Below are positions 41,067 to 59,328 of a stretch of 64,000 bases of DNA, one piece after another (position 1 is the stretch's first letter; each line of letters opens with the position of its first letter). Origin of the DNA: Pseudofrankia inefficax (GTDB taxonomy: Bacteria > Actinomycetota > Actinomycetes > Frankiales > Frankiaceae); contig NC_014666.1 in NCBI RefSeq assembly GCF_000166135.1, positions 5,332,001 to 5,396,000 on the forward strand, in the 5' to 3' direction. Below the pieces are notes generated by a model. That model saw only the letters and a list, made by a program, of their open reading frames with translations, made no database searches and was not told where the DNA came from. Position numbers and translations under genes: made by a program.

Positions 41067-41807
41067 ATGGGCAGTGCCGCCGAGCAGACCTATCGCGAGG
41101 TCATGACCATCGAGCCACCGGCCGTGACGACGCCGCTGGAGCAGTTCAGCCGGGACTTCGTGTTCGGCGAGGTGTGGAGCAGGCCCGGCCTCAGCCGCCG
41201 CGACCGGCGCTGGGTGACGCTGACCTGCGTCGCCGCCGCCGACGCGCCGGGGCCGATCGAGGACCACGTCTACGCCGCGCTGAACAGCGGCGACATCGAG
41301 CTGGACGCGATGTTGGAGTTCGTCCTGCACTTCGCCGTCTACTGCGGCTGGCCGAAGGCCTCGCACCTGGAGATGGTCATCGCCCGCCAGTGGCACCGCA
41401 TCCAACGTGAGCAGGGACGCGAGCCGGCCCCGTGGCCGGTCCTTGACAACGCCACGCTCGGCCCGAACGACTGGGAGGCGCGCCTCGCCCGCGGCGTCGA
41501 GGAGTTCGTCGACGTGAACCTCGTGCCGGCGCCGCCCGCGGAGACGCCCTATCGGCACGCCGGCATCCTCAACTTCGTCTTCGGCCACGTCTGGCAGCGC
41601 CCGGGGCTCACCCGCCGCGAGCGGCGCATCATCACCGTCGCCTGCGTCGCCATTGACGACTCGCCGACGCCGCTGACCACGCACGTCGGCTCCGCGCTGC
41701 GCTCCGGCGACCTCACCAAGGCCGAGATGGACGAGATCGTCCTGCACTTCTCCGCCTACTACGGCTTCGCCAAGGGCGAGGCACTCCACGACGCCGCCGA
41801 GAAGTAA
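41067..41807 (+). CDS. Tandem carboxymuconolactone decarboxylase-domain protein
   Basis: A 246-residue protein with two CMD repeats. The first spans about residues 28-115 (FVFGEVWSRPGLSRRDRRWVTLTCVAA ... LEFVLHFAVYCGWPKASHLE), the second about 163-245 (FVFGHVWQRPGLTRRERRIITVACVAI ... EIVLHFSAYYGFAKGEAL). Both have the VLHFxxYxGxxK helix and neither has the CxxC of AhpD. Tandem proteins like this are usually assigned to decarboxylation of 4-carboxymuconolactone-like lactones, but specificity is unproven. GAGGAG precedes the ATG at 41067. Followed 50 bases later by a binding-lipoprotein gene. Confidence 0.88.
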   Translation: MGSAAEQTYREVMTIEPPAVTTPLEQFSRDFVFGEVWSRPGLSRRDRRWVTLTCVAAADAPGPIEDHVYAALNSGDIELDAMLEFVLHFAVYCGWPKASHLEMVIARQWHRIQREQGREPAPWPVLDNATLGPNDWEARLARGVEEFVDVNLVPAPPAETPYRHAGILNFVFGHVWQRPGLTRRERRIITVACVAIDDSPTPLTTHVGSALRSGDLTKAEMDEIVLHFSAYYGFAKGEALHDAAEK

Positions 41808-43133: not shown

Positions 43134-43172
43134 GGCCCGGCGTGCTCGACGACGAGCGCGCCGGGCCTTCTT
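43134..43172 (+). terminator. Rho-independent terminator after the binding-protein gene
   Basis: GGCCCGGCG (43134-43142) pairs with CGCCGGGCC (43159-43167), with inner GCTCG/CGAGC pairs extending the stem, followed by TTCTT. It also lies at the 3' end of the convergent dehydrogenase fragment. Confidence 0.8.
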
Positions 43173-43500
43173 ACTCGGAGCCGGCGCGCAGCAGGGCGAG
43201 GGTCTGGTGAGCCAGCGCGACGAGGGCCGCGGGTTCGGTAGCCCCGGCTGCCTGGGCGACGTCGAGCATGATGCCCACGTCCTTGCGCAGCAGCGGCTCG
43301 GCTCCGCGAAGCCCGGTCGTGTCGAACCCGGACCGCGCCAGGGTGGCCGCGGCGAAGCTGCCGCCGCTCCCATGGCCCTGCACGCGCGCGGCCGCGGCCC
43401 GGTCCAGCCCGAGCCGGTCGACGAAGGCGAACAGGTCCAGGGCGATGCCGACGTGGGTCGTGAACAGGAAGTTGTTCAGCGCCTTCGCGACCTGGCCACT
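43171..43500 (-). pseudogene. C-terminal fragment of a 3-hydroxyisobutyrate dehydrogenase-family gene
   Basis: The frame encodes SGQVAKALNNFLFTTHVGIA, followed by LDLFAFVDRLGLDRAAAARV, GHGSGGSFAA and LLRKDVGIMLDVAQAAGA. This is the all-helical C-terminal domain of beta-hydroxyacid dehydrogenases (the family K-x2-N-N catalytic helix is visible as K-A-L-N-N). The entire N-terminal NAD-binding domain of about 165 residues is absent; upstream sequence in the same frame does not resemble it. A truncated relic. Confidence 0.75.
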
Positions 43501-45391: not shown

Positions 45392-46114
45392 CTACAGGTC
45401 ACGCAGCGCGTTCAGGGTCGTCTCGGCGAGTTCGGGGCGGCAGATGAGCAGGTCGGGCAGGTAGGGGTTGGGTTGGTTGTAGCGCAGGGGTGAGCCGTCG
45501 AGCCGGGAGACGTGCAGTCCGGCGGCCGCCGCGACGGCGACGGGTGCGCAGGAGTCCCATTCGTACTGGCCGCCAGAATGGGCGTAGATGTCGACCTGTC
45601 CGCGGACGACGGCCATCGCCTTGGCGCCGGCTGAGCCCATGGGCACCAGGGTGGCGTTCAGCTGGGTGACGAGATGGTCGACGCAGGCCGGCGGGCGTGT
45701 GCGCGACACGGCGAGGCGGACCGGGCCGGTCGACGGCGGGGCGAGGGCCGGTGGTCGGCCGGTGTGCAGGACGAGGCCGGCCGCGGGTAGCGCGACGGCG
45801 CCGGCGGTGGGCTCCGCGTTGACCGCGAGCGCCACATGGACGGCCCAGTCCTCGCGTGGCGGCTCGCCGTACTCGCGGGTGCCGTCGAGAGGATCGATGA
45901 TCCACACCCTGTCCCGGTCGACGCGGGCGGGATCGTCGGCGCTCTCCTCCGACAGGATCGCGTCGTCGGGCCGCGCGCGGGACAGCCGCTCAAGGAGCAG
46001 CTCGTTCGACCCGCGGTCGCCGGCGGCGCCGCCTTCTGCCCGGATGGCAAGCAGGAGCTCGCCCGCCTCGGCGGCCAGCGTCGCCGCGAGGATGTGGTCG
46101 TCCATGCCCGTCAC
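45392..46114 (-). CDS. cysQ: 3'(2'),5'-bisphosphate nucleotidase CysQ (inositol monophosphatase family)
   Basis: A 240-residue Mg-dependent phosphatase. The metal-binding signatures are [22 protein letters not shown] and, near the end, [20 protein letters not shown]. In this position it should hydrolyse PAP (adenosine 3',5'-bisphosphate), the by-product of PAPS-dependent sulfotransfer, to AMP. The GTG at 46114 overlaps the cysNC stop (GTGA); the ATG at 46105 is the alternative. As the last gene of the sulfation operon it would clear the inhibitor made by the upstream sulfotransferase. Confidence 0.88.
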
Positions 46115-48039
46115 GCTCCGTCCTGCCAGGTGAGGATCCCGGCGTCACGCAGGTAGGTGACGACCTGTTCGGCGCCTTGTTCGGCGGGGATGGTGCCGGA
46201 GGCGTCGAGGTGGATTTCGGGGTTGTGGGGGGCTTCGTAGGGGGAGTCGATGCCGGTGAAGTTGGCTAGTTCGCCGCGGCGGGCTTTGGCGTAGAGGCCT
46301 TTGCGGTCGCGGGCTTCGGCGACGTGTAGGGGGGTGTCGACGTGGACTTCGATGAATTCGCCGTTGTCGAGGAGGTCGCGGGCGAGTTGGCGTTCGGCGC
46401 GGAAGGGGGAGATGAAGCTGGTGAGGACGATGAGGCCGGCGTCGGCCATCAGTTTGGCGACTTCGGCGATGCGGCGGATGTTCTCGACGCGGTCGGCTTC
46501 GGTGAAGCCCAAATCTTTGTTGAGGCCGTGGCGGACGTTGTCGCCGTCGAGGAGGTAGGTGTGGAAGCCCTCGTCGTGCAGCTTCTTCTCGACCAAATTG
46601 GCGATGGTGGATTTCCCGGCGCCGGACAGTCCGGTGAACCAGATGACCGCGGGGCGTTGGCCCTTGGTGGCGGCGCGGGCGGTTTTGTTGACTTCGACGG
46701 CCTGCCAGTGGATGTTGTGCGACCGGCGGAGCGCGAAGTGTAGGAGGCCGGCGGCGACGGTGGCGTGGGTGTATTTGTCGATGAGGATGAAGCCGCCGGT
46801 GTCGCGGTTGACGGTGTAGGGGTCGAACGGGACGGGCCGGTCGAGGGTGAGGTTCGCGACGCCGATCTCGTTGAGTTCCAGGGTCTTCGCCGCGGTCTGT
46901 TCCAGCGTGTTGACGTTGACCTTGTATTTGGGTGGGGCGAGGGTCGCGTTGACGGTGCGGGTGCCGAGTTTGAGCAGGTAGGGCCGGCCCGGGAGCATCG
47001 GCTCGCCGCCCATCCAGACCAAATGGCATGCGAACTGGTCGGCGACCTCGGCCGGGGCGTCGGCGGCGGCGAGGATGTCGCCGCGGGAGACGTCGATCTC
47101 GTCGGCCAGCGTGAGGGTGACCGACTGGCCGGCGTAGGCGGCTTCCAGGTCGCCGTCCGCGGTGACGATCCGGGTGACGACGGACTCCTGGCCCGACGGC
47201 AGCGCTCGGATCTTCTGCCCGGGGCGGATCATCCCGCCGGCGACCTGGCCGCAGAAGCCGCGGAAGTCCAGGTTCGGCCGGTTGACCCACTGGACCGGTA
47301 GCCGGAACGGCCCGTCGCCCGCGGTGTCGGCGATCTGGACGGATTCCAGGTAGCCGACCAACGTGGGTCCGGTGTACCACGGCGTACTCGTGGACAGTTC
47401 GGTGATGTTGTCGCCGCGCAGCGCCGACAGCGGGATGGCGCGGATGGCGTCACCTTCGAGGCCGATCTGGGCGGCGAACGTCCGGTAGTCGGCCTCGATC
47501 TCGTCGAAGGTCTGCTGGGAGTAGTCGACGAGGTCGAGCTTGTTGATCGCGAGCACGACGTGGCGGATCCCGAGCAGCGAGACGAGGTAGCTGTGGCGCC
47601 GGGTCTGGGTCAGGACGCCCTTGCGGGCGTCGATCAGGATGACGGCGAGATCGGCGGTGGAGGCGCCGGTGACCATGTTGCGGGTGTACTGCTCATGGCC
47701 GGGGGTGTCGGCGACGATGAACTTGCGTTTCTCGGTGGAGAAGAACCGGTAGGCCACATCGATCGTGATGCCCTGCTCCCGCTCGGCCGCGAGGCCGTCG
47801 ACGAGCAGCGCGAAGTCGAGTTCGCCGCCCTGGGTGCCGACCTTCTTCGAGTCCGACTCCAACGCGGCCAACTGGTCGGAGAACACCAGCTTCGCGTCGT
47901 ACAACAACCGGCCGATCAGCGTCGACTTGCCGTCATCCACGCTGCCGCAGGTGATGAACCGCAGCATCGACTTGTCCTCATGCCGGCGCAGATACGCCTC
48001 GACGTCCGTCGCGAGCAGCTCATCCGTCGCATGCGCCAT
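46111..48039 (-). CDS. cysNC: Bifunctional sulfate adenylyltransferase large subunit / APS kinase
   Basis: A 642-residue fusion. The N-terminal part is the CysN GTPase: GSVDDGKST (residues 32-40), [12 protein letters not shown], the NKLD guanine motif, then beta-barrel domains. It drives ATP sulfurylase with GTP. From about residue 450 comes APS kinase, with P-loop GLSGAGKST near 470 and FISPFRAER and the conserved [11 protein letters not shown] loop. It turns APS into PAPS. The start overlaps the cysD stop by one base (TGATG). Such fusions are common in actinobacteria and proteobacteria. Confidence 0.95.
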
Positions 48040-48977
48040 CAGAAGTATCCCTCGTGCTTCTTCTTCTCCATCGACCCCGACGAGTCGTGGTCGATGACCC
48101 GGCCCTGGCGCTCCGACGACGTCGTCAACAACATCTCCTGGACGATCTCCAGCAGGGTCGACGCCTCGGACTCGACCGCCCCGGTCAACGGGTAGCAGCC
48201 GAGCGTCCTAAACCGGATCGAGCGCTGCTCGGGGATCTCCCCCGCCGCCAGCGGCATCCGCTCGTCATCGACCATGATCAGCGTGCCGTCGCGTTCCACG
48301 ACCGGCCGCGGCGCCGCGAAGTACAACGGGACGATCGGGATGTTCTCCCGGTGGATGTAGAGCCAGATATCCAGCTCGGTCCAGTTCGACAACGGGAACA
48401 CCCGAATCGACTGCCCCGGCGCCTTACGCGCGTTGTACAACCGCCACAGCTCCGGACGCTGGTCCTTCGGATCCCACCGATGCGCCGCCGACCGGATCGA
48501 GAACACCCGCTCCTTCGCCCGCGACTTCTCCTCATCCCGACGCGCCCCACCGAACGCCACATCAAACCCGTACTTGTCCAACGCCTGCTTCAGGCCCTCG
48601 GTCTTCCAGATGTCGGTGTGCATCGCCGACCCGTGATCGAACGGATTGATCCCCCGCTGCACCGCATCCGGATTCTGATGCACCAACAGATCCAGGCCCA
48701 GGTTCGCGACATGCTGGTCCCGGAAGGCGTACATCGCCTGGAACTTCCACGTCGTGTCCACATGCAGCAACGGGAACGGCGGCTTCGACGGAAAGAACGC
48801 CTTCATCGCGAGATGCAGCATCACCGCGCTGTCCTTACCGACCGAATACAACATCACCGGCCGCTCAGACTCGGCGACAGCCTCCCGAAAGATCTGAATG
48901 CTCTCCGCCTCCAGACGCCGCAAATGCGACAGATGAGGCGTGCCCGGGACGACGGGACTCGACGTGGCAGTGGACAT
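48039..48977 (-). CDS. cysD: Sulfate adenylyltransferase subunit 2
   Basis: A 312-residue PP-loop ATP pyrophosphatase. The motif [14 protein letters not shown] (residues 44-57) binds [22 protein letters not shown] and the C-terminal [13 protein letters not shown] are diagnostic for CysD. It makes APS from sulfate and ATP with CysN. AGGAGAGG precedes the ATG at 48977. Only 41 bases separate it from the alcohol dehydrogenase gene upstream, so it is probably read from the promoter at 54.2 kb as well as any local one. Confidence 0.96.
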
Positions 48978-49018
48978 CAGCCGTTCCTCTCCTGTCCTCG
49001 TCTGTGATGGCCGGCTGG

Positions 49019-50053
49019 TCAGCTCAGCCGCAACGCGACCCGCACGGAGTCGCGGCCGGGGGTGGACCGGGTCAGGAGCGCGAAGGCCTCCTCGAACCGC
49101 TCCAGCGGGAACGAGTCCCCGAGCAGCTCGGCGGTCGGGACCTTGCCCTCGTTGATGAGCGCGACGGCACCGGCGGCGTCCAGGCCGGCGCCGGGATGCA
49201 GCGTGATGCGCCGGGTCGGGATCCAGTCGCTGTGGAAGCCCTCCAGCGGGCGGTCCTTCATGCCGGCGATGACGACGTGGCCGCCCTTGTGGACGAGGTC
49301 CATGGCCAGGTTGACCGTCACCGGGTTGCCCGCGGCGGCGTCGATGACGACGCCGGCCATCGCTCCACCGGTGATCTCCCGGACCCGTTCGACCGGATCC
49401 TCCGCGTCGACGTCGATGACGTGGTCGGCACCGATGCGCAGCGCGCAGTCGAGCCGGAACCGGTCCTTGGCGGTTCCGGTGACGATGACGGTGGAGGCGC
49501 CGGCGGCCTTCGCCGCGACGATCGTGGCCATGCCCATGTGCCCGGGGCCTTCGATGACCACGACGTCGCCGTCGGCGACCGGCTTGACCCAGGTGACGGC
49601 GCAGCTCAGCGGCTCGAAGACGGTGAGCTGGTCGGCGGGGAGGTCGTCGCGCAGCTTGTAGACCATCGAGCCCGGCACCAGCTCCAGGTGTTCGGCGAAG
49701 CCGCCATAGAGGCCGGAGCCCTCGTCTACGGAGAAGTCGTGGCCGTAGATGCGATGCCCGGCCGGAGTGAAGGCGATGTCCCAGACCGCGACCCGGTCAC
49801 CCTCGGCGACGCCCCACTTGTCCGCAGCCTCGGGGGTGATCCTCTCGATGCGGCCGACGATCTCGTGGCCGGGAATCGAGGGGAACGCGCCGCCCCACGA
49901 GGTGTGCACGTGGCCGCGGAAGTGGTCGATGTCGCTGTGGCACAACCCGGTGGCCTCGACGCGCAGGACCGCGCCCCCAGGTTGGGGGTCTGGCACGGGC
50001 AGGTCGCGCAGCTCCCAGGTCTCGTCGCCGTTGAACACGATCGCGCGGCTCAT
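49019..50053 (-). CDS. Zinc-type alcohol dehydrogenase (MDR), no structural zinc
   Basis: A 344-residue MDR enzyme. Catalytic zinc ligands are in GLCHSDI and IPGHEIVGR. The structural-zinc four-cysteine loop is replaced by [15 protein letters not shown], so this second metal site is missing. The cofactor loop is [20 protein letters not shown]. It overlaps the TIM-barrel gene by four bases (ATGA). In the operon it probably oxidises or reduces the same alcohol that the sulfotransferase modifies. Confidence 0.87.
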
Positions 50054-50856
50054 GGCAGTTCCTTTTCCAGGAGGGCGTTCGCCCGGTCGACGGCGCGGCG
50101 GGTGGCGGGTTCGAGGCCCTCGGCCTCGACCGCCGGGCCGACGAGTTCGAGTTCGAAGGGGCCGGTGTAGCCGGTGTCGAGGACGGCGCGCAGGAAGGTG
50201 TCGACGGGCATGTCGCCGTCGCCCGGGACGACGCGGGTTCCGGCGGGGAGTGTTCCTCGCTCGTGGGCGAGGACATCGCACAGCTGCGCGACGGCGAGGC
50301 GGTCGCCGACGTGGCGCACGGCGGCGGCGAGGTCGGGTTCGCGCCAGCAGTTCCCGAGGTCGACGATGAGGTCGAGGCCGGTCCGGTCGGCGACCTCGAC
50401 GGCGTCGCGCAGCGTGTGGACGAACGACCGGTCGGTGCGCTGGGTGGGCTCGATCGCCACCCGGACACCACGCGTCGCCGCGTGGGCCAGGCAGGGAGCG
50501 ACCGCGTCCGCCAGGGCCTGGGTGAGCTCGTCGAACGAACGGCCTGGCGCGGTGCCGGGGGTGAGATAGACGCAGCCGCCGACGACCGCCGCGAGGTCGA
50601 TGGACTGGCGGATCTCGTCGCGGGTCGCGTCCCACGTCGCGGGGGCGGCCAGCTCGAACTGGTTCGTGATCACAGTGGTGAGCCGCAGCGACCGGGCCGT
50701 CAGCGCGCTGACGGCCTGCTCGCGCCCGTAGGCCGCGAGCTTGTTGTCGAGCACGCCGACGTGGCTCAGGTCGAGGGAGTCCCACAGGACGAGCTCGTCG
50801 GCGAACGGCCAGGGGTAGGTGCACATCTCGCTGACGGACAGCCGGGGGTGTGCCAT
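50050..50856 (-). CDS. Sugar phosphate isomerase/epimerase-like TIM-barrel protein
   Basis: A 268-residue xylose-isomerase-like TIM barrel (AP-endonuclease-2 superfamily). Metal-type residues appear in VRVAIEPTQ, LIVDLGNCW and the His/Asp region VPGDGDMPVDTFLRAVLDTGYTGPFELEL. The last is typical of IolE/hydroxypyruvate isomerase-like proteins. Its start overlaps the MBL stop (TGATG) and its stop overlaps the ADH start. Substrate unknown; an isomerase, epimerase or dehydratase acting on a polyol or keto compound fits the operon. Confidence 0.8.
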   Translation of the reverse strand: MAHPRLSVSEMCTYPWPFADELVLWDSLDLSHVGVLDNKLAAYGREQAVSALTARSLRLTTVITNQFELAAPATWDATRDEIRQSIDLAAVVGGCVYLTPGTAPGRSFDELTQALADAVAPCLAHAATRGVRVAIEPTQRTDRSFVHTLRDAVEVADRTGLDLIVDLGNCWREPDLAAAVRHVGDRLAVAQLCDVLAHERGTLPAGTRVVPGDGDMPVDTFLRAVLDTGYTGPFELELVGPAVEAEGLEPATRRAVDRANALLEKELP

Positions 50857-52088
50857 CACAGCTTCTCCTGGGTGTCGCGGATCTCGGCTTCGAGCCAGCG
50901 GACCTCGCTGAAGTTCTCCCGGCCGCCACGGGCCAGCAGGAGTTCGTGGGCGTCGAGCTTCACGCGCAGGGCGTTCGGGTCGTCGGGCGCCTGGGACAGG
51001 ACGATCTCGGCGAAGTGCAGTGCTTCCAGTGGTCGTCCGGCCGCGAGGTGTGCTTCGGCGCGGGCGAGCAGCGGGGCGGTTCCCCCGGCGAGGTCGATGA
51101 GCTCGTCCCAGATCGCCGAGGGCGGCACGTGGTAGAGCTCGGTGGTCGACTCGTAGCGGAACCAGCCGGTGTGCTCCTCCCAGATCGCCCGCACGATCCA
51201 GGGAACCTTGCCGTGGCCCTGGGGGATGTTCAGCTCGGGCGGCAGGGTGACCTGGCCCATCAGGGTCCACAGGTCGACGCCGGCGTTCATGCCCTCGATC
51301 GTCTGGTCGCGCAGCGACGCGGTCGCGTCCCGCAGCTGGGTGAGCCGCCGGCGGATCTCCTCGGCGCCGCGGATCGGCTCGCCGTGCCCGGTGATCAGCA
51401 CCTCGGGGGCGAGCGCGAGGACCCGGTCGACGGTGTGGAGGTAGGAGATGGCGCTGCGGATCTTGTCGCCCCGGACCGTGTACAGGTTCGGGACGTGGCC
51501 GAACAGCGGCCCGAACAGGTTGCCGGTGAACAGGATGCGCTCGTCGGGGAGCCAGACGACCAGCGAGTCGGTCGTCTCCCCGCCCGGCGTCGAGTACAGC
51601 TCGAAGCGGCGGCCACCGAGGGTGAAGGCGTGGCTGTCGAGGAACGTCGTCGTGACGACGGGCTCGGGTGGCTGGTAGGAGCGGTCGACGTTCGTGATGT
51701 CCCTGCTCCACAGCTTCCCGGTGCGCCGGGCGTAGAACGGCTGCAGGTTGTGGAAGTACTCGCGGACGTCGGCGTGGTTCGCGTGCGCGATGGTCTCGAT
51801 GCCCGGGGCGGTCAGCTGGGACCAGCCGCCGACGTGGTCCGGATGGCCCTGCGTGAAGACGATGGCGCGGACCGGATGGTCGCTGACCTCGGCGAACCGG
51901 CTCCTGATCTGGTCGGCCTCGAAGTACATCCCGGTGTTGATCAGCAGGTCGCCGTCCGGGGTGGTGACGAGGTAGCTGTTGGAGATGCCCCTCGACGCGT
52001 AGATGCCGTCTCCGAGCGGTACGGCCGGTTGCTCGCCTTCACCCTCCTTGACGATCAGGGCGTTGAGTGGCTGCTGCTGTGCACTCAC
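50856..52088 (-). CDS. MBL-fold hydrolase, alkyl sulfatase (SdsA1/BDS1)-like
   Basis: About 410 residues. The N-terminal metallo-beta-lactamase domain has FTQGHPDHVGGW (residues 78-89), LFTGNLFGPLFGHVPNLYTVRGDK and ITGHGEPI. The C-terminal segment (TGWFRYESTTELY and LARAEAHLAAGRPLEALHFAEIVLSQAPDDPNALRVK) matches the dimerisation domain of linear alkyl sulfatases. Unlike SdsA1, the first metal ligand of HxHxDH is Gln80. It starts at a GTG overlapping the sulfotransferase stop (GTGA). Cleavage of the sulfate ester made by its neighbour, or another hydrolysis, is possible. Confidence 0.8.
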   Translation of the reverse strand: MSAQQQPLNALIVKEGEGEQPAVPLGDGIYASRGISNSYLVTTPDGDLLINTGMYFEADQIRSRFAEVSDHPVRAIVFTQGHPDHVGGWSQLTAPGIETIAHANHADVREYFHNLQPFYARRTGKLWSRDITNVDRSYQPPEPVVTTTFLDSHAFTLGGRRFELYSTPGGETTDSLVVWLPDERILFTGNLFGPLFGHVPNLYTVRGDKIRSAISYLHTVDRVLALAPEVLITGHGEPIRGAEEIRRRLTQLRDATASLRDQTIEGMNAGVDLWTLMGQVTLPPELNIPQGHGKVPWIVRAIWEEHTGWFRYESTTELYHVPPSAIWDELIDLAGGTAPLLARAEAHLAAGRPLEALHFAEIVLSQAPDDPNALRVKLDAHELLLARGGRENFSEVRWLEAEIRDTQEKL

Positions 52089-53356
52089 CGGGCGCGCTCC
52101 TTTGCCACCTCGGGGCTGAGCTGGACGGTGTCGGTGTAGAAGGCGAACCGCTCGCGCAGCTCGCCCGCGTCGAGGCCGAAGTCGCCCGCCAGGTCGTAGA
52201 CGACCCGACCGCGCTTCCCCCGGGGGTGGGCGGCCAGGTAGTGCTCGATGTCCGTGCGGGTCTCGTCGGTGACCGGGAGGCCGGCTCGTTCCAGTACGCC
52301 GGCGGCGGCCTGGACGTCGTTGCCGACGATCTCGTCGAACCGCAGCTCGACGAGCTGCCCGGCGGGGACCAGGTCGCGGTCGCGCAGGTAGCCGCGCAGC
52401 ATCCGTTCGAGCCGGTCCACCCAGTAGGCGACGTGCGCGTCGACGTCGAAGCGCTTCTGGCTCGCCTTCAGCGCGAGGCCGCGCATCGTCAGCAGGGACC
52501 GGATCGTGGCGACCGGGTCACGGTGGATCATCACCACGGTCGCGTCCGGGTAGGTCGCCAGCAGCGGGCCGAGCTGCTCACTGTGCTGGTTGGACTTCAG
52601 CATCCACCGCTGGTCACTGGGGAACTGCCAGGCGACTGCCCGCAGGACGTCCTTCATGTAGCGGTAGTGCGGGGTCTGGTCGTGGCTGAGGTAGTGGTCG
52701 CGGAAGTGCGGGACGTTCGCCATCCACTCCCACTGGTAGCTGGCGAAGTCGGGCACCTGCAGCTCGTTCTCGCCGCAGGCGTGGTCGGGCGAGTGCTCGT
52801 GCATCGCCGCGAAGATCTCGTTGCTGGCGAGCCGCTGCCAGCGGGCGTCCGACCGGGACCAGCGCGGGTCGACCCCGTCCGGCCCCGGCAGCTCGCCGAG
52901 CTTCGGGGCCGGTTGGGCGGCCAGGTAGACCGGGAGGTGGCGCAGCCGGCGATCGGCGGCCAGCAGGTTCTCCAGATGGGTGCTGCCCGAGCGAGGCAGC
53001 GCGATGACGTTGATCGGCCGTTCGATGGGCGCGTCGAGACAGGCGGGGTTGTCCTTCCAGTAGCGCTGGATGAGCAGCCGGTTCGCCGCGGCCGAGACGC
53101 AGTGCTCGACGAAGGCCGCCTTGTGCGTCCGCCAGACGTTGTCGTCGGCCTCGACCTCGGCGAGCAGCAGGCCGAGCCGCTTGGTGAACTCCAGCGAGCC
53201 GAAGTCATCGAGGCCGGTCCGGCGGGTGGCGCCTTCGAGGACCGCGTCGATGCTCATGTCCAACAGCCGGCGCTCGTCGGCCTCCAGCGCGGCCCGCTCC
53301 GCGGGGGTGCGGGTGTCCTCGCGCATTCCCTCGACGCGTAGCACCTTTACGGCCAT
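52085..53356 (-). CDS. PAPS-dependent sulfotransferase
   Basis: A 423-residue sulfotransferase. The 5'-phosphosulfate loop is ALPRSGSTHLENLL (residues 119-132) and the 3'-phosphate motif is VVMIHRDPVATIRSLL (274-289). The N-terminal 110 residues are helical and are seen in actinobacterial sulfotransferase-family members of unknown acceptor. The ATG at 53356 overlaps the SDR 3' end by ten bases. PAPS is supplied by cysD and cysNC in the same operon and PAP removed by cysQ. The acceptor is unknown and may be a hydroxylated lipid, steroid or small alcohol. Confidence 0.9.
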   Translation of the reverse strand: MAVKVLRVEGMREDTRTPAERAALEADERRLLDMSIDAVLEGATRRTGLDDFGSLEFTKRLGLLLAEVEADDNVWRTHKAAFVEHCVSAAANRLLIQRYWKDNPACLDAPIERPINVIALPRSGSTHLENLLAADRRLRHLPVYLAAQPAPKLGELPGPDGVDPRWSRSDARWQRLASNEIFAAMHEHSPDHACGENELQVPDFASYQWEWMANVPHFRDHYLSHDQTPHYRYMKDVLRAVAWQFPSDQRWMLKSNQHSEQLGPLLATYPDATVVMIHRDPVATIRSLLTMRGLALKASQKRFDVDAHVAYWVDRLERMLRGYLRDRDLVPAGQLVELRFDEIVGNDVQAAAGVLERAGLPVTDETRTDIEHYLAAHPRGKRGRVVYDLAGDFGLDAGELRERFAFYTDTVQLSPEVAKERAR

Positions 53357-54153
53357 GGCGGCAGCTCCGTGATGTCGGTCTTGCCCGCGTTCGCCAACCA
53401 GCCGCCGTCGACGACGACCAGGTCGCCGGTGTGGTAGCGCGACTCGTCGCTCATGAAGTAGACGCCGATGCCCTCGAAGTCGTCGGCGTTGCCGGCCCGT
53501 CCGGACGGGTTGTAGCGGCGGTTGCGCTCGAACAGCGGGCTGTCGACCGCGATGCGCACGGTCTCGCTCACCGTGTAACCGGGACAGACGACGTTGCAAC
53601 GGATGCCGTACCGGCCGGCCTCCACCGCGATGCCCCGCGACATGGCCGCCATCGCGCCCTTGGAGGCGTTGTAGTGCTGCATGCCGGGACTGCCGGTGAG
53701 TGCGGACAGGCTGGCGCAGAACAGCAACGACCCGCCCGGGTCGCCCGCGTCGTAGCGACGTTTCATATGGCGGGCACCCTCACGCATGGCGAAGAACGCG
53801 CCGTGCTGGTTGACGGCGAGCAGGCCGTGCCAGGCCTCGCTCGTCAGCTCCACGAAGCTGCGCTCACGGCGCATCAGCCCGGCGTTGGCGATGACCCCGT
53901 CGACCCGCCCCAGTTCCTCGACGACCTCGTTCATCGCCTCGACGACGCGGGTCTCGTCCGAGACGTCGACCTCCTGCGCCAGGACCCGGTGACCGAGACC
54001 GGCGAGGTCCTTGGCCGCCTCCGCGTTCTTCTCGGCTCGCCGGCCCCAGACGACGACGTCCGCGCCCGCCCGGGCGGCCCCCCGCGCGAAGGCGAGACCG
54101 ATCCCGGCGTTCCCACCACTGACCACGACCACCCGGCCCGTTAAGTCGAACAT
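53347..54153 (-). CDS. Short-chain dehydrogenase/reductase (SDR), first gene of the sulfation operon
   Basis: A 268-residue SDR. The cofactor loop is VVSGGNAGIGLAF, the NAG motif IANAGLM, the catalytic serine region FCASLSALTG, and the active pair YNASK; the end is TGDLVVVDGGWL. VVVWGRRAEKN after the second strand suggests NADP(H). The ATG at 54153 lies close to the promoter at 54160-54189, so the mRNA leader is very short. It may make or remove the hydroxyl that the sulfotransferase uses. Confidence 0.9.
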   Translation of the reverse strand: MFDLTGRVVVVSGGNAGIGLAFARGAARAGADVVVWGRRAEKNAEAAKDLAGLGHRVLAQEVDVSDETRVVEAMNEVVEELGRVDGVIANAGLMRRERSFVELTSEAWHGLLAVNQHGAFFAMREGARHMKRRYDAGDPGGSLLFCASLSALTGSPGMQHYNASKGAMAAMSRGIAVEAGRYGIRCNVVCPGYTVSETVRIAVDSPLFERNRRYNPSGRAGNADDFEGIGVYFMSDESRYHTGDLVVVDGGWLANAGKTDITELPPWP

Positions 54154-54159
54154 GGGACA

Positions 54160-54189
54160 TTGCTATAGCAAAATTTGTATTGCAGTCAA
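54160..54189 (-). promoter_or_regulatory. Promoter and palindromic operator of the sulfation operon
   Basis: On the minus strand TTGACT (-35, 54189-54184) and TATAGC (-10, 54167-54162) are 16 bases apart. The -10 lies inside the perfect palindrome TTGCTA-TAGCAA (54160-54171). The gene starts only eight bases past the -10, so the message is leaderless or nearly so. The palindrome is a natural site for the divergent IclR protein. Confidence 0.6.
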
Positions 54190-54238
54190 GCGGAGAGGCT
54201 GGCCAGGGGTCGCCCGAAGGTCGGCTACCGTTGGCTGC

Positions 54239-55171
54239 ATGGCTCGGCCCGCGCCCGCATCCGCCCGCGCGACGGACATCGTGTCGTTCCTGACGGCGCA
54301 CCCGTCGCGGGGCTTCACGATCAGCGAGCTCGTCACGCACCTCGGCATGAACATCGCCTCGGCGCACGCGACGCTGGCCGTGCTGTGCGACAGCGGGTTC
54401 GTGGTGCGCGACCCGGTCCACCGCACCTACGTCCTCGGCCCCGCGCTGGCGGTCACCGGGTTCGCGACGTTGGAGCAGCACCCCGCGATCGGCGCCGCGG
54501 TCGAGCAGGCCGAGGTGCTCGGCGACGAGCTCGGGACGGAGATCAGCGTGATGGCCGCCGCCGGCCGGGACGTCATCTTCCTCGCCCGACGCGGCCCGGT
54601 GGCACGGGCGCAGGTCCTCGGCTACCCGGGAGACCGGACGCCGATGCTGGCGCCGATCGGCGCGGTGTTCCTGGCCTGGGCCGAGGACGAGGCGGTCAGC
54701 GGCTGGCTGGAGCGGGCCACGCTGACGCCGGCCCTCCGTGAGCTCTACCGGCGCGTTCTCGGGGAGATCCGCGACCGCGGCTACAGCGTGCCCCTGGCGT
54801 CGATCGCCGCACCCGCCGTGATCGACGCCATCGCGAAACTGCGTGACGAGCCCACCGACGCCGACGCCGAGCATCGCCTCGCCGAGGTGCTCGCGAAGAC
54901 CGACGAGATGCTGCTGTCCTTCGAGAGCCTCACCGGCAGCGACAAGATCGTCGTGAAGACGGTCGCCGCGCCGGTCTTCGACCCGATGGGCCGGGTGCTG
55001 CTGTCGCTGAGCATCACCGGGCCGGACCACGCGATCGCGGTCGAGGACGTCATCGAGCTCGGCCGACGGCTCGTCCAGTCCGCGACCATCGCCACCCGCC
55101 AGGCGCGGGGCAGGATCCCAGGCCGGGACCTGCCGCCGACCGGAACGACGAGTGCCGGCCGGCGGCGCTGA
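54239..55171 (+). CDS. IclR-family transcriptional regulator
   Basis: A 310-residue regulator. The N-terminal winged HTH is ATDIVSFLTAHPSRGFTISELVTHLGMNIASAHATLAVLCDSGFVVRD, followed by the IclR effector domain (RTYVLGPALAVTGFATLE ... ISVMAAAGRDVIFLARRG). The domain is somewhat longer than usual and carries a Pro/Arg tail. It is divergent from the eight-gene sulfation operon, with a palindrome over that operon's -10, so it probably controls it. The effector could be the pathway substrate. Confidence 0.9.
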   Translation: MARPAPASARATDIVSFLTAHPSRGFTISELVTHLGMNIASAHATLAVLCDSGFVVRDPVHRTYVLGPALAVTGFATLEQHPAIGAAVEQAEVLGDELGTEISVMAAAGRDVIFLARRGPVARAQVLGYPGDRTPMLAPIGAVFLAWAEDEAVSGWLERATLTPALRELYRRVLGEIRDRGYSVPLASIAAPAVIDAIAKLRDEPTDADAEHRLAEVLAKTDEMLLSFESLTGSDKIVVKTVAAPVFDPMGRVLLSLSITGPDHAIAVEDVIELGRRLVQSATIATRQARGRIPGRDLPPTGTTSAGRRR

Positions 55172-55229: not shown

Positions 55230-57287
55230 TCACGTGCTGTTCTGTGGCTGGTGGTAGGCGTGGCCGTTGATGGTGGTGGTCATCGTTCCGGTGGCTTGGA
55301 AGTCGTTGGTCAGTAGGTCGATGGTGAGGTGGAAGCCGTCGGGGCTGGTTTTCTTGGTGCTTGGGGTGATGCCGGTCTGGGTGAGGTCGGAGTACCAGTC
55401 GAGTTTGGAGACGGTGAGGCTCGGGGCGGCGGCGGTGACTTTCTCGGTGCCGTTGAGGGTGCGCAGGCCGTCGTCGGAGTAGTTGGTGTAGCGGACGGCG
55501 ATGGTGTCGATCGCGGTCTTCGCCGCGTTCTCGGTGATCGTGACGGCCGCTGTTCCGGTCTTGGCTCCGGCGAGTGTGTAGGAGCCGGTGGGTGGGAAGG
55601 GGCGGGTCGGGATCGGGCTGCCGGGGACGTAGGGGGTGCCCCAGGGGACGGTGTCGGAGATCGGGGCGACGGTGGGTGCCGGTGCTGGTTTGCGGCTGGT
55701 GAACGTGGCGATCATCAGGCGGGCGGTCCGGCCGCCGGGTTCGGTGGAGGTCTCGCATGTCAGCGGGTTCGCGCCGCCGCAGGCGGGTGGGGTCGCGAGT
55801 GCCTGCCAGTAGACGACGGCGGTGCCGTCCGGTGACCAGCGGGGGTCGGCCTCCCCGTTCCAGTTCGGGTCGTTGATCGCGCCGGGGCTGCCGTCGCCGG
55901 CGGCGTTGATCTGCTGGCCCTGGTAGGTGCCGCGGTCGCCGTAGCGGTCGATCAGGATGGGCTGGAAGAAGCGTCGCGTCCCGTTGTTGCGCACCGAGGA
56001 GACCGCGCCGGGGGTGACCAGGTCGGTGATCGGGGGGATGCCCCGCATGCCGGCGAGGAACTCCTGGCGGTCGGAGCCGCGGGTGTCCATGGCGACGGTC
56101 CAGTCGCCGTCGGGCGAGAGGTCGATCGGGTCGGTGTATTCGGGGTTGCTGGTGAGCCGGCGGACTTTGCCGGTGGTCAGGTCGGCGGCGAAGACATCGA
56201 TGTTGGACGACTCGTCCGGGTAGCCGATGTAGGTGACCTCCTTGCCGTCCTTGCTGAAGCCACGCAGCTCACCCACCGAGATCGCGTTGCGGTTGATCGT
56301 CAGCTGGCCGGGGTGGGCCGGATCGACGTACACGGTCTGCTTGTCGGTCGCGGTGTCGAACAGCCGGGTGACCGACGTGAGGTCGTAGCGGGCAGCCAGC
56401 GGGGTGCCGGTGGTGGGGTTCGGGTTGAACGTCAGCCGGCCGAGGTAGCCGAACTGCCCGATCGCGCCGCCTGAGAACGTGAAGCTGTTGAAGCCGAGAT
56501 GGACGTTGTCCGGGTTCAGCCGCAGCTCACGGATACTCCCGCCCTTGCCGGACCCGTCGGCCGTGTTGTTGAACCGGACCGGATAGACATGGACCCGGCC
56601 CGGGGCGCAGCCGGTATCGGCGAGCTTGAACGACCCACAGTCGATGACGTTCGTGCCGGCCAGGATCCGCTTGCCGTCGTTGAACGGCTGCGGATAGTCC
56701 AGGGCCTCGTTGCGCCCGGCCTGATTCGCGGCCGGGACACCACAGGTCACACACTTCCACGCGTCGCCGCCAGGGAAGGTCGTGCCGTCGGTCCGCACAA
56801 TGATGATCTGCGGGCCCGCGTAGACACTCGCCGGGTCGGGAGCCGCCGGCGCCCCAGCGAAACTGACCATCGCGGAGACCGCGTGCCCGTCCGGCAGATA
56901 GCCACCCGACTGCAGACCGACCGACTGGCCGATACAACCCGTCCCGTGCGGGTTGACCGCCACCGTACAGCCACCCGACGCGGCATTGGTCGTCACCGGA
57001 GGCAATGGCAACTCACTGACCGAGATCGGCTCCGGCTTCGGCGCCGGCGGATTACTCACCACCTCGGGAAGCGCGTTGATCCCGGAGGGCGCCGCTCCCG
57101 TGGTGCCGGCCGAGCCGGACGACGAGCACGCCGCCACCGCGACCATCAGCGCCATCACCAAGCCCAGCACCGACCAACGCGCCCGCGTGGCCGACGCAGG
57201 CGGCCGGCGGCGCCCGCCCGGAACCTTCCGACAAGAGGCGCGCGGAAATCGCGATGCGCCACGAGAAATCGTCAAGCGTAAAGGCAC
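55230..57287 (-). CDS. Exported TolB/WD40-like propeller lipoprotein (paralogue B)
   Basis: About 685 residues. A hydrophobic signal (SVLGLVMALMVAVAAC) with lipobox VAAC lies near residue 53, suggesting surface anchoring; the true start may be somewhat later than 57287. The body has repeated strand-turn units with LSPDGDWTVAMDTRGSDRQEF and RWSPDGTAVVYWQ, as in TolB/WD40-like propellers. A CVTCGVPAANQAG motif and several other Cys pairs suggest disulfides. The last ~130 residues form a separate beta-domain ending GTMTTTINGHAYHQP. It resembles the next upstream gene over most of its length. Function unknown. Confidence 0.75.
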   Translation of the reverse strand: MPLRLTISRGASRFPRASCRKVPGGRRRPPASATRARWSVLGLVMALMVAVAACSSSGSAGTTGAAPSGINALPEVVSNPPAPKPEPISVSELPLPPVTTNAASGGCTVAVNPHGTGCIGQSVGLQSGGYLPDGHAVSAMVSFAGAPAAPDPASVYAGPQIIIVRTDGTTFPGGDAWKCVTCGVPAANQAGRNEALDYPQPFNDGKRILAGTNVIDCGSFKLADTGCAPGRVHVYPVRFNNTADGSGKGGSIRELRLNPDNVHLGFNSFTFSGGAIGQFGYLGRLTFNPNPTTGTPLAARYDLTSVTRLFDTATDKQTVYVDPAHPGQLTINRNAISVGELRGFSKDGKEVTYIGYPDESSNIDVFAADLTTGKVRRLTSNPEYTDPIDLSPDGDWTVAMDTRGSDRQEFLAGMRGIPPITDLVTPGAVSSVRNNGTRRFFQPILIDRYGDRGTYQGQQINAAGDGSPGAINDPNWNGEADPRWSPDGTAVVYWQALATPPACGGANPLTCETSTEPGGRTARLMIATFTSRKPAPAPTVAPISDTVPWGTPYVPGSPIPTRPFPPTGSYTLAGAKTGTAAVTITENAAKTAIDTIAVRYTNYSDDGLRTLNGTEKVTAAAPSLTVSKLDWYSDLTQTGITPSTKKTSPDGFHLTIDLLTNDFQATGTMTTTINGHAYHQPQNST

Positions 57288-57354: not shown

Positions 57355-59328
57355 TCAGAAGGATCCGGGCTGGTGGTAGGTGTGGCCGTCGAGCGTCGTC
57401 GTCATGGTTCCGACGGGGTCGTAGGTGCCGGAGATGACGGCGCGCGGCGAGATGGTGTATCCGCCCGGCTCGCTGGTCTTCTTCGTTCCGGTGTGTCTCC
57501 CGGTGAGGGCCAGGTTCTCGTGGAACGTGATGTCGCTGGCCGACGTCCCCTTGTTCTGGACGCTCTCCGTGCCATTGATGACGTCGAGGCCGTCGTCGTT
57601 GAAGTTGGCGTAGGTGACGGAGATCGACAGCACGCCGGTCTTCGTGCTGTTCTCGGCGACCGTGACGGCCGCGGTGCCGGCGGTCCTCCCGCGCAGGGTG
57701 TAGGTGCCGGCGGGGAGGTGCGGCAGGACCGGCGTCGGGTCACCGGCGCGGTACGGCGTTCCCCAGGCGACGGTGTCCGGGAGCGGCCTGACCGCGGGGG
57801 TCGGCCGCGGTGTGCGGCTGGTCAGCTTGGCGAGCATGAGTCGAGAGGTGCGGCCGCCGGGTTCGCTGGAGGGCGGGCAGGTGGTGGGGTCGCCGACGGC
57901 CGGGCCGCAGTCGGCCGCGGCCGGGTAGGTCTGCCAGTAGACGATCTCGGTGGCGCCCGGGGAGAAGTACGAGTCGGCCATCGAGGCCCACAGCGGGTCG
58001 TCGGCGGTGCTGCCGGGCCCGGTCGCGAGCGTGGTGCAGGGGCCGGTGGCGCAGGTGTTGAGCTGCTGGCCGTGGTAGTCGCCGCGGTCGCCGTAGCGGT
58101 CGTACAGGTAGGGCTCGAAGAGCCGGCGCTGGTGGATGTTGTAGCCGGCGGATTCGGCGGCGCCGGTCGGCAGCGCGTCGGTGATCGGCGGGACGCCCGG
58201 CAGCGCGGCGAAGAAGGAGAACCGGTCGTGGTAACGGACGTCCATGGCGACGGTCCACTGGCTGTCCGGTGAGCTCGTGACCGGGTCGCTGTAGGCGGGG
58301 TCGGCGTCCAGGCGCCGGGTGGTCCCGGTGGCGAGGCTGGTCGCGACGTGGTCGAGGTTGTCGGACTGGACATCGGCGATACCGAGCGCCTCGGCGCCAT
58401 CGCCGGTCCAGCCCTTGAACTCGCCGAGGACGTGGTTCTGCTGGTAGGTCAGCCGGGTCGGGGTTGCCGGGTCGACGCGCAGGAAGGTGCCAAACGGCTC
58501 GTCGGCGCTGAAAAGCCCGGTGATCTCCGTGAGGTCGTAACGCGGCACCCTCGGCTCGCCGGTGGCCGGCTTCGGGTCGAACGTGAGCCGGCCGTAGTAG
58601 GCGAGTTCGCTGAAGGTGTCGTCAGCGGTGGCGGGAAAGAGAATCCGGTTCCAACCGACGTGCACGTTGTCCGGGTTCAGCTTGATGCCGTAGATCAGCC
58701 CACCGGCGCCGGAGCCGTCCGCGGTCGTGTTCCACCGGATCGGGTAGATGTGGATGGCCGCGCCGGTGCAGCGCGCATCGGTGAACGTGTACTGCCCACA
58801 GTCGACGATGTTGTTGCCGGCGAGGATTCGCGAGCCGTCGCTGAAAGGCTGAGCCGCGCCGAGACTGGTCGAGGCGCCGGCCTTGTTGGCGGCCGGGATG
58901 CCGCAGGTGAGGCATTGCCACGCGGCGCCGCCCGGGAACGTCGTCCCGTCCGTTCTGATCATCGCGAGCTGGGAGCCGCTGTACACGCTGGCCGGGTCCG
59001 GTGCCGCCGGCGCGCCGGCGTAGGTCAGGGTCGCCAGGACCGTGCGGTCGTCGAGGAAGCCGCCCGCCGACACCGCCGAGATACAGCCGGTGCCCCGCGG
59101 ATTGACCGCGGTCGTGCACGCCCCCGGGCTGGCCGAGGGCGCTGTCGGCGGTACGGGCAGTTCTGCCAGGTCGATCGGCTCGGCCTTCGGCGGCGCCGGA
59201 ATACTCACGGCGGCGCCATTGGGGTGGCCGGACCGGCCCGAAGACCCGGAACTGCTGCAGGCCCCCGCTAACAGCACCGCCGCCGCACCGACGACGAGCC
59301 AGCGGATACCTCGACGGCCACGAGCCAC
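57355..59328 (-). CDS. Exported TolB/WD40-like propeller lipoprotein (paralogue A)
   Basis: A 657-residue lipoprotein. The signal (RWLVVGAAAVLLAGAC) ends in the lipobox LAGAC. The body is a close paralogue of the gene that follows: both have TAVNPRGTGCI-type, APAAPDPASVY, RTDGTTFPGG and CLTCGIPAANKAG blocks, SSPDSQWTVAMD-type propeller strands and a terminal TMTTTLDGHTYHQP. Such propellers bind ligands or peptides. It is 93 bases downstream of a sensor kinase gene and 67 bases upstream of its paralogue, so all may form one transcription unit. Confidence 0.78.
   Translation of the reverse strand: MARGRRGIRWLVVGAAAVLLAGACSSSGSSGRSGHPNGAAVSIPAPPKAEPIDLAELPVPPTAPSASPGACTTAVNPRGTGCISAVSAGGFLDDRTVLATLTYAGAPAAPDPASVYSGSQLAMIRTDGTTFPGGAAWQCLTCGIPAANKAGASTSLGAAQPFSDGSRILAGNNIVDCGQYTFTDARCTGAAIHIYPIRWNTTADGSGAGGLIYGIKLNPDNVHVGWNRILFPATADDTFSELAYYGRLTFDPKPATGEPRVPRYDLTEITGLFSADEPFGTFLRVDPATPTRLTYQQNHVLGEFKGWTGDGAEALGIADVQSDNLDHVATSLATGTTRRLDADPAYSDPVTSSPDSQWTVAMDVRYHDRFSFFAALPGVPPITDALPTGAAESAGYNIHQRRLFEPYLYDRYGDRGDYHGQQLNTCATGPCTTLATGPGSTADDPLWASMADSYFSPGATEIVYWQTYPAAADCGPAVGDPTTCPPSSEPGGRTSRLMLAKLTSRTPRPTPAVRPLPDTVAWGTPYRAGDPTPVLPHLPAGTYTLRGRTAGTAAVTVAENSTKTGVLSISVTYANFNDDGLDVINGTESVQNKGTSASDITFHENLALTGRHTGTKKTSEPGGYTISPRAVISGTYDPVGTMTTTLDGHTYHQPGSF

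Follow-up and report, generated by a model that had tools for sequence, protein, structure and literature searches.

Background

In rhizobia, a sulfotransferase works together with its own supply of 3'-phosphoadenosine 5'-phosphosulfate (PAPS): NodH and NodPQ sulfate the Nod factor, and the product of NodH is a stable signal. Here we describe an operon of Pseudofrankia inefficax (assembly GCF_000166135.1, contig NC_014666.1) that lies at positions 45392-54153 of the window, by which we mean the whole stretch of 64,000 nucleotides analyzed (5332001-5396000 of a genome that consists of one contig of 8.82 Mb). As in the NodH-NodPQ system, a sulfotransferase (ST) shares one operon with its own CysD and fused CysNC; however, this operon also holds an alkylsulfatase-like protein of the metallo-beta-lactamase (MBL) fold, a short-chain dehydrogenase/reductase (SDR), an alcohol dehydrogenase (ADH) and a TIM-barrel protein, and a gene for an IclR-type regulator faces it. 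A scan of 19 of the 54 genes called in the window found no Pfam match to nod-type families, and the ST has no NCBIfam match. The passages of two papers that deal with nodH of Frankia describe it near nodABC, in a setting unlike that of the window operon (PMC5059922, PMC5584510).

Three further groups of described systems resemble parts of the operon. With the alkylsulfatases SdsA1, SdsAP and Pisa1, the MBL protein shares the fold, a weakly scoring Alkyl_sulf_dimr domain, one glutamate ligand and, in most members of its branch, a PNLxTxRG stretch, but it has 410 aa against 633-668 in the closest solved proteins. Retinol dehydratase, the ST domains of olefin synthase and curacin, and sorghum LGS1 share the sulfotransferase fold with the window ST at a distant score. 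In these systems sulfate aids a later loss or ring closure, and they differ from the present case in acting in biosynthesis or retinoid metabolism; we know of none that has a co-encoded MBL protein and PAPS supply. The third group is mycobacterial: Rv3529c, which we take to be the sulfotransferase Stf1, is listed with its neighbors up to Rv3531c as a trio that lacks an MBL protein, and the likeness is one of gene-list description only. The excerpt of the mycobacterial cholesterol gene list that covers the trio gives a conserved hypothetical, a possible oxidoreductase and a hypothetical protein (PMC6429209).

A first-pass annotation of the window, made from the sequence alone, had called the locus a sulfation operon in which a sulfate group is put on and later removed, and knew of no described pathway with this gene set; likewise, none appeared among the best matches listed in our searches of open-access literature, a scope outside which many subscription papers lie. 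Its observation is confirmed and proves wider than reported, and its interpretation is partly supported: the idea that sulfate is put on and later acted on is well supported as gene linkage and unproven as chemistry. We propose that the operon may serve the temporary sulfation of a small-molecule hydroxyl in an IclR-linked catabolic cassette, with the predicted MBL enzyme acting on the sulfate ester, and we give this reading about an even chance.

Results and Discussion

Layout of the operon

The genes of the operon, in transcriptional order, and the facing regulator are as follows.

54239..55171, plus strand: IclR-type regulator (PF09339/PF01614), divergent from the operon; an IclR gene adjoins the same block in relatives
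53347..54153, minus strand: SDR oxidoreductase, operon gene 1 (PF13561, 175 bits)
52085..53356, minus strand: sulfotransferase, ST (PF13469, 117 bits, cut-off 27)
50856..52088, minus strand: MBL-fold protein, 410 aa, divergent alkylsulfatase branch (PF00753, 63 bits; PF14863, 44 bits)
50050..50856, minus strand: TIM-barrel isomerase/epimerase-like protein, AP_endonuc_2 (PF01261, 107 bits; nearest solved structures 3ju2/3qc0)
49019..50053, minus strand: Zn-type (medium-chain dehydrogenase/reductase) alcohol dehydrogenase, ADH (PF08240 and PF00107; nearest structures L-threonine 3-dehydrogenase)
48978..49018, minus strand: ADH-CysD gap of 41 bases, the sole gap between neighboring operon genes
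48039..48977, minus strand: CysD, ATP sulfurylase small subunit (PF01507; NCBIfam NF009214, 545 bits)
46111..48039, minus strand: CysNC, fused ATP sulfurylase GTPase and adenosine 5'-phosphosulfate (APS) kinase (CysN-type GTPase and APS kinase Pfam families; NF004035, 1063 bits)
45392..46114, minus strand: CysQ-like phosphatase of 3'-phosphoadenosine 5'-phosphate (PAP) (PF00459; best solved relative the PAP phosphatase 5djf, E 2e-73)

All eight genes lie on the minus strand, from 54153 down to 45392, and neighbors overlap by 10 bases (SDR/ST), 4 (ST/MBL), 1 (MBL/TIM), 4 (TIM/Zn-ADH), 1 (CysD/CysNC) and 4 (CysNC/CysQ), in agreement with the tight unit and the interval given in the first-pass annotation, whose gene families are likewise confirmed by the Pfam and NCBIfam assignments. 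In the ADH-CysD gap, a simple consensus scan that covers sigma-70-type promoters only listed no promoter- or terminator-like site. Every Pfam match of an operon gene is above its family cut-off. CysQ is the least certain name among them, because the gene scores 102 bits where the NCBIfam cut-off for CysQ is 229, even though its nearest solved structure is a PAP phosphatase. The relatives of the TIM-barrel protein and of the ADH are too generic to point to a substrate. The IclR gene is separated from the operon by 85 bases (54154-54238), provided that the called start at 54239 holds; this start comes from the gene caller and is uncertain, and an ATG frame opens at 54152.

The ST has the family profile of PF13469 and a fold of the Stf1/Stf9 type: a Foldseek search returned Stf9 and Stf1 first, with TM scores of 0.78/0.73 by query (2z6v, E 2e-18), and the motifs RSG (122-124) and HRDP (278-281) are invariant in 8/8 aligned STs. 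By family and motif conservation, it is a putative PAPS-dependent sulfuryl transferase. More distant fold matches include retinol dehydratase, the ST domains of olefin synthase and curacin, and LGS1, whose entry title speaks of sulfation-assisted ring formation.

Linkage of the sulfotransferase to PAPS synthesis and to the MBL gene

To assess the linkage of these genes, we counted in 35 Frankiaceae genomes how often each lies near an ST, with "near" defined as within 6.5 kb of a PF13469 match; the counts are lower bounds, among the ST matches listed. Fused CysNC is near an ST in at least 25 of 32 places, whereas unfused CysN is near one in 0/19. MBL genes of the window type, which we call Q-type after a glutamine described below, are near an ST in at least 9/10 places (the remaining place holds a fragment where a contig begins), in contrast to 0/12 for genes of SdsA1-type alkylsulfatases, a control that excludes five weak or partial PF14863 rows belonging to neither group. 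Six ST matches were left out of the count (five second pieces of single genes and one below the cut-off), and two ST pieces at 4.139 Mb were counted as one. Four of the seven places where CysNC lacks an ST are at contig ends (genome G015 once, G019 three times), and two more (L111 and L113, in genomes G031 and G021; L numbers denote loci or contigs of our comparison) look like sister operons without an ST: in G031 a shortened frame of a 345-aa protein family introduced below is still found upstream of cysD, and in G021 cysDNCQ follows an SDR gene and a nitroreductase-like gene, an arrangement similar to that of L108/L110 except that the ST is absent.

The same pattern is seen within the source genome, where PF13469 has fifteen matches that make up 14 loci, two matches being pieces of one frame. 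The PAPS_reduct family occurs in five places, four CysD and one CysH-like. All four cysD-cysNC pairs are near a PF13469 ST (at most 6.5 kb away) and an SDR, a grouping that goes beyond chance, because a simple random-placement model predicts an ST within 6.5 kb for only ~0.026 per gene. The cysH-like gene, at 7.735 Mb, has a sulfite/nitrite reductase gene as its neighbor and is more than 2 Mb from the operon, which itself contains neither cysH nor a sulfite reductase gene and in this differs from an operon of assimilatory sulfate reduction. These results bear out two points of the first-pass annotation, that no sulfite-forming or sulfite-reducing gene is beside the operon and that its PAPS seems meant for transfer to an acceptor. 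Its term "self-contained" is too strong, however: the genome yielded no ATP sulfurylase of the Sat type, the CysD/CysNC pairs are the only ATP sulfurylase found, and the four pairs should therefore also serve cysteine synthesis.

Three of the four pairs (window 46111-48977, L006:8914-11733 and L007:9860-12656) are 98.0-98.6% identical in DNA over ~2.8 kb, the window pair being 98.3-98.6% identical to the two others over 2.8 kb, but the STs beside them share just 29-36% of residues. Hence the PAPS module has been copied to, or homogenized between, very different ST operons by recent copying or gene conversion. The third gene of these operons varies. Both the window operon and the one at 3.42 Mb have an MBL gene there; the operon at 4.06 Mb encodes a DUF1214-like protein of 412 aa, whose score of 23.7 bits narrowly misses the Pfam cut-off of 25, and the one at 6.79 Mb encodes a 345-aa protein without a Pfam match.

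This interchange extends to other organisms. On plasmid pNL2 of N. aromaticivorans, the order ADH-ST-DUF1214-TIM-Gfo/Idh-SDR presents the same set with DUF1214 in place of the MBL protein and one extra gene; the DUF1214 protein of pNL2 matches one solved, uncharacterized protein, 6ans. The 345-aa family is found near ST and SDR genes both in Frankiaceae (L006:7845-8882) and on a plasmid of Mycolicibacterium madagascariense (L079:11929-12966), the two proteins being 46% identical, and a search with the 345-aa protein returned only matches of E 0.34 or worse.

A further DUF1214 locus, on plasmid b of Sphingobium TomMM15 (L074:1-14000), has ADH-ST-SDR-DUF1214 adjoining genes for beta-xylosidase, beta-galactosidase and beta-glucosidase. 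Sphingobium from tomato reportedly breaks down tomatine, and strain TomMM15 is said to be connected with this.

An altered metal site in the MBL branch

The best solved relatives of the MBL protein are SdsA1 (E 2e-20), PSdsA and the sec-alkylsulfatases. Both domains of these enzymes are present above their cut-offs (22.7 for PF00753 and 26 for PF14863), with a PF14863 score of 46-51 in the Q-type branch compared with 193-224 in SdsA1-types. In SdsAP, the section of the source that gives the metal ligands names His192, His194, Asp196, His197, Glu303, Glu322 and His367 (PMC5426288). We aligned the MBL protein to SdsA1, the numbering of which is offset from that of SdsAP by 23 at the glutamates by our own count, and obtained the following positions.

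Q80, H82, D84, H85, E171, N190, N201, R206, H235: key residues of the MBL protein

The branch retains H82, D84, H85, E171 and H235 of the alkylsulfatase ligands. The HxHxDH motif is altered to QxHxDH, with Q80 in place of the first His, in 35/35 rows (including four duplicate contigs) and in 7/7 sphingomonad rows, and the place of the bridging glutamate (Glu322 of SdsAP) is taken by Gly/Ser-Asn (N190) in 35/35 rows and by Gly-Asn in 7/7 sphingomonad rows. The SdsA1-type controls have HxHxDH in 4/4 inspected (of 12) and the bridging Glu (AEN) in the two of these four where the pattern located the place. The PNLxTxRG stretch, presumably the site that holds the sulfate, is exact in 32/35 rows, the exceptions being an unread base in L015/L054 and F for L in L088.

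With two ligand positions changed and HxHxDH kept in the controls, we reject the view that the protein is an ordinary SdsA1-type enzyme. The "putative sulfatase" of the first-pass annotation holds as regards relationship and has to be modified as regards the site: by sequence, the protein belongs to a divergent alkylsulfatase branch, and the altered site suggests one metal and a weaker activation of water.

Phylogeny of the two partners

We compared the history of the two partners in a tree of the ST (43 of 48 rows, after removal of four duplicate contigs and the truncated L014, with the partner label of L075 set by hand and several long branches flagged) and in a tree of the MBL protein (30 of 35 rows, after removal of four duplicates and the partial L012, with the ST clades labeled by hand); neither tree includes the sphingomonad loci L120-L126. 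In the ST tree, the MBL label falls in two deep clades and needs 5 changes, at least 3 of them on well-supported branches. In the MBL tree, the ST clade was switched at least 2 times on well-supported branches. MBL and ST have thus come together repeatedly, and this favors a shared task for the two proteins over one inherited neighborhood.

Conservation in and beyond Frankiaceae

The order of the operon recurs in its Frankiaceae relatives, as the first-pass annotation had proposed to check. Relatives that carry the same genes belong to Frankia, Pseudofrankia and Parafrankia. The full order SDR-ST-MBL-TIM-ADH-CysD-CysNC-CysQ is also present in L013; L011, L015 and L050 have the same order plus a CMD gene between ADH and CysD; L010 keeps the order up to a contig end inside CysNC; and the metagenome-assembled genome ZJ2.bin36 (contigs L014 and L018) has cysDNCQ in the opposite direction, beside IclR. 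The SDR homologue is also gene 1 in L010-L013, L015 and L018, with an identity of 71-91%. A second copy in genome G030 (L049:8674-11517) consists of SDR (in pieces in the gene calls), ST and MBL; TIM, ADH and cys genes are missing from the order seen.

A gene of the nitroreductase family precedes cysD in some Frankiaceae operons (L108:10497-11309, L109:8936-9697, L110:8866-9666), assigned by a Pfam match for L108 and by a similar sequence start for L109 and L110.

Beyond the family, another actinobacterial genus (13 genomes with 17 MBL genes, from a class sample of 393 genomes with 19 that have a match) has the ST beside or near the MBL gene in 17/17, and 6/16 regions have an IclR-like gene that faces the ST or flanks it. 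In a sample of 149 sphingomonad genomes, drawn from the family of the Novosphingobium genome of L016, the MBL gene occurs in 7 (loci L120-L126), and an ST is within ~3 kb in 5/7. One of these, L120, has SDR-ADH-MBL-CysD-CysNC-CysQ with a divergent ST, a recurrence with cys genes in another phylum, and Novosphingobium KACC 22771 (L130) has CysD-CysNC-CysQ-ST-DUF1214, again in the other phylum. The MBL gene adjoins the ST on plasmids of Novosphingobium RL4, Sphingobium V4 and Sphingobium RAC03 (3/3 plasmid matches of at least 45% identity). The setting of several relatives is catabolic, with TonB receptors, TetR/IclR/AraC regulators, Rieske oxygenases and P450s.

A proposed sulfation cycle and its alternatives

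Under the proposed temporary sulfation, the cell would take up and degrade a substrate, and the family assignments suggest that CysD and CysNC would make PAPS from sulfate, ATP and GTP, and that the ST would transfer the sulfuryl group to a hydroxyl of this substrate. Gene linkage and descent from alkylsulfatases suggest that the MBL protein may then bind the sulfate ester and expel sulfate, which is more likely a leaving group than a tag. We would prefer elimination of sulfate, that is, a dehydration driven by sulfation, over plain hydrolysis, given the replacement of the first His by Gln and of the bridging acid by Asn. SDR, ADH and the TIM-barrel protein could oxidize, reduce or isomerize the neighboring carbons, while CysQ, judged by its family, would destroy PAP, and the released sulfate would return to CysD. 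Local copies of cysDNCQ would be useful because every cycle spends one PAPS. In favor of this proposal are the linkage of cysD-cysNC and of the Q-type MBL gene to STs, the repeated change of ST partner, the altered ligand positions, the recurrence with cys genes in another phylum, the catabolic setting of several relatives and the distant fold matches of the ST.

Several observations weigh against this proposal. Elimination is argued from the changed ligand positions alone, and hydrolysis is also possible for MBL enzymes that have a single metal or a Gln ligand. The AlphaFold model of the MBL protein is poor (pLDDT 46.8; six rows) and gives no three-dimensional view of the site; only 4/7 sphingomonad rows have an exact PNLxTxRG, and in L125 the His of DH is replaced by Ile. 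Beyond Stf1/Stf9, the fold matches of the ST are distant (TM ~0.3). The fused CysNC of G034 has no ST near it, and 2/7 sphingomonad MBL loci are without a visible ST, one of them on an 8 kb contig. Cys genes are also scarce at the loci outside Frankiaceae: cysD is found in 0/16 fetched regions of the other actinobacterial genus and at only 1/7 sphingomonad loci, and cys genes are found at 0/3 of the MBL-ST plasmid loci, whereas 8/9 full-length MBL loci in Frankiaceae have them. The first-pass annotation had held that finding the block without cys genes in most relatives would refute its idea, and this is what we see outside the family but not within it. Because cys genes are usually absent outside Frankiaceae, we take the core to be ST and MBL, in most cases joined by SDR and often by ADH, and the PAPS supply to be a repeated addition to it in that family.

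An alternative to elimination is an inverting hydrolysis, in which the MBL enzyme, in the manner of Pisa1, hydrolyzes the C-O bond of a secondary alcohol that the ST has sulfated, so that a stereocenter is inverted for one PAPS. The presence of sec-alkylsulfatases among the nearest solved relatives and the largely retained PNLxTxRG stretch speak for it. According to the portion of the Pisa1 study that concerns the mechanism, a two-zinc cluster activates water to attack carbon, with inversion, and a His protonates the sulfate (PMC3920027). This precedent cuts both ways, since Pisa1 needs the two-zinc cluster and the window MBL protein has two SdsAP-type ligand positions changed; furthermore, the SDR and ADH of the operon could invert an alcohol more cheaply via the ketone. 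We consider inverting hydrolysis unlikely.

We find it no more probable that the sulfate is a protecting, solubility or retention tag, which would shield a hydroxyl or hold the molecule inside or outside the cell until the MBL enzyme removes it and leaves the carbon unchanged. The co-occurrence of ST and MBL would fit such a tag, and solubility tagging is a common role of sulfation, but PAPS synthesis within the operon suggests a cost of turnover instead, and no exporter family is represented among the eight operon genes.

The biosynthesis of a sulfated product, either a NodH/NodPQ-like signal or a secondary metabolite, with the MBL protein doing some other reaction, seems quite improbable. 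NodPQ with NodH is a known set of PAPS synthesis plus ST, and an AMP-binding gene and a gene for 2273 aa are located at 21.6-30.3 kb of the window. The excerpts on nodH also place it in Frankia relatives (PMC5059922, PMC5584510). Against this stand the lack of a nod-type family among the window genes scanned, the occurrence of core relatives on catabolic plasmids that also encode TonB receptors and carry Rieske/P450 genes, and the IclR gene that faces the operon.

Finally, that ordinary assimilation genes adjoin an unrelated operon by chance is very hard to credit, and we reject it on the Frankiaceae ST-association controls together with the conserved operon order and the distance to cysH and sulfite reductase, even though the CysD/CysNC pairs should serve assimilation too and 4/5 sphingomonad plasmids read (of 357 records with a cysD match) carry CysD-CysNC-CysQ without an ST nearby, a finding that calls for caution in reading the linkage.

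Genes around the operon

One gene outside the operon is a possible satellite of it.

41067..41807, plus strand: CMD-family protein, possible operon satellite (PF02627)

Its product is 79-82% identical to the copies that sit between ADH and CysD in L011, L015 and L050. At window 43171-43383, a 70-aa stretch is 71-72% identical to a 3-hydroxyisobutyrate-dehydrogenase-like gene that follows CysQ in L011, and looks like a remnant. Beyond the IclR gene, window 55230-57287 and 57355-59328 encode two adjoining proteins (685 and 657 aa) that are related to each other and have no Pfam match. In Frankia sp. AgB1.9 each has a counterpart of 90-92% identity, and its identity to the counterpart of the other is 49-50%.

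Conclusions

A broader version of the proposal, which we put forward tentatively and regard as doubtful, is that in two phyla alcohols are broken down by a sulfate-activation cycle. PAPS would sulfate an unreactive hydroxyl, interchangeable partners (a one-metal MBL "sulfate lyase", DUF1214 or the 345-aa family) would expel the sulfate and leave a product that is dehydrated or rearranged, and sulfate and PAP would be recycled by genes of the same operon. Removal of an unactivated hydroxyl is a hard step in the breakdown of terpenoids, steroids and polyols. If it is true, a route of sulfate activation would be a new catabolic logic; it would account for part of the PF13469 family, with its 14 loci in the source genome, would offer a function that can be tested for DUF1214 and for the 345-aa family, and may provide new biocatalysts for dehydration or inversion.

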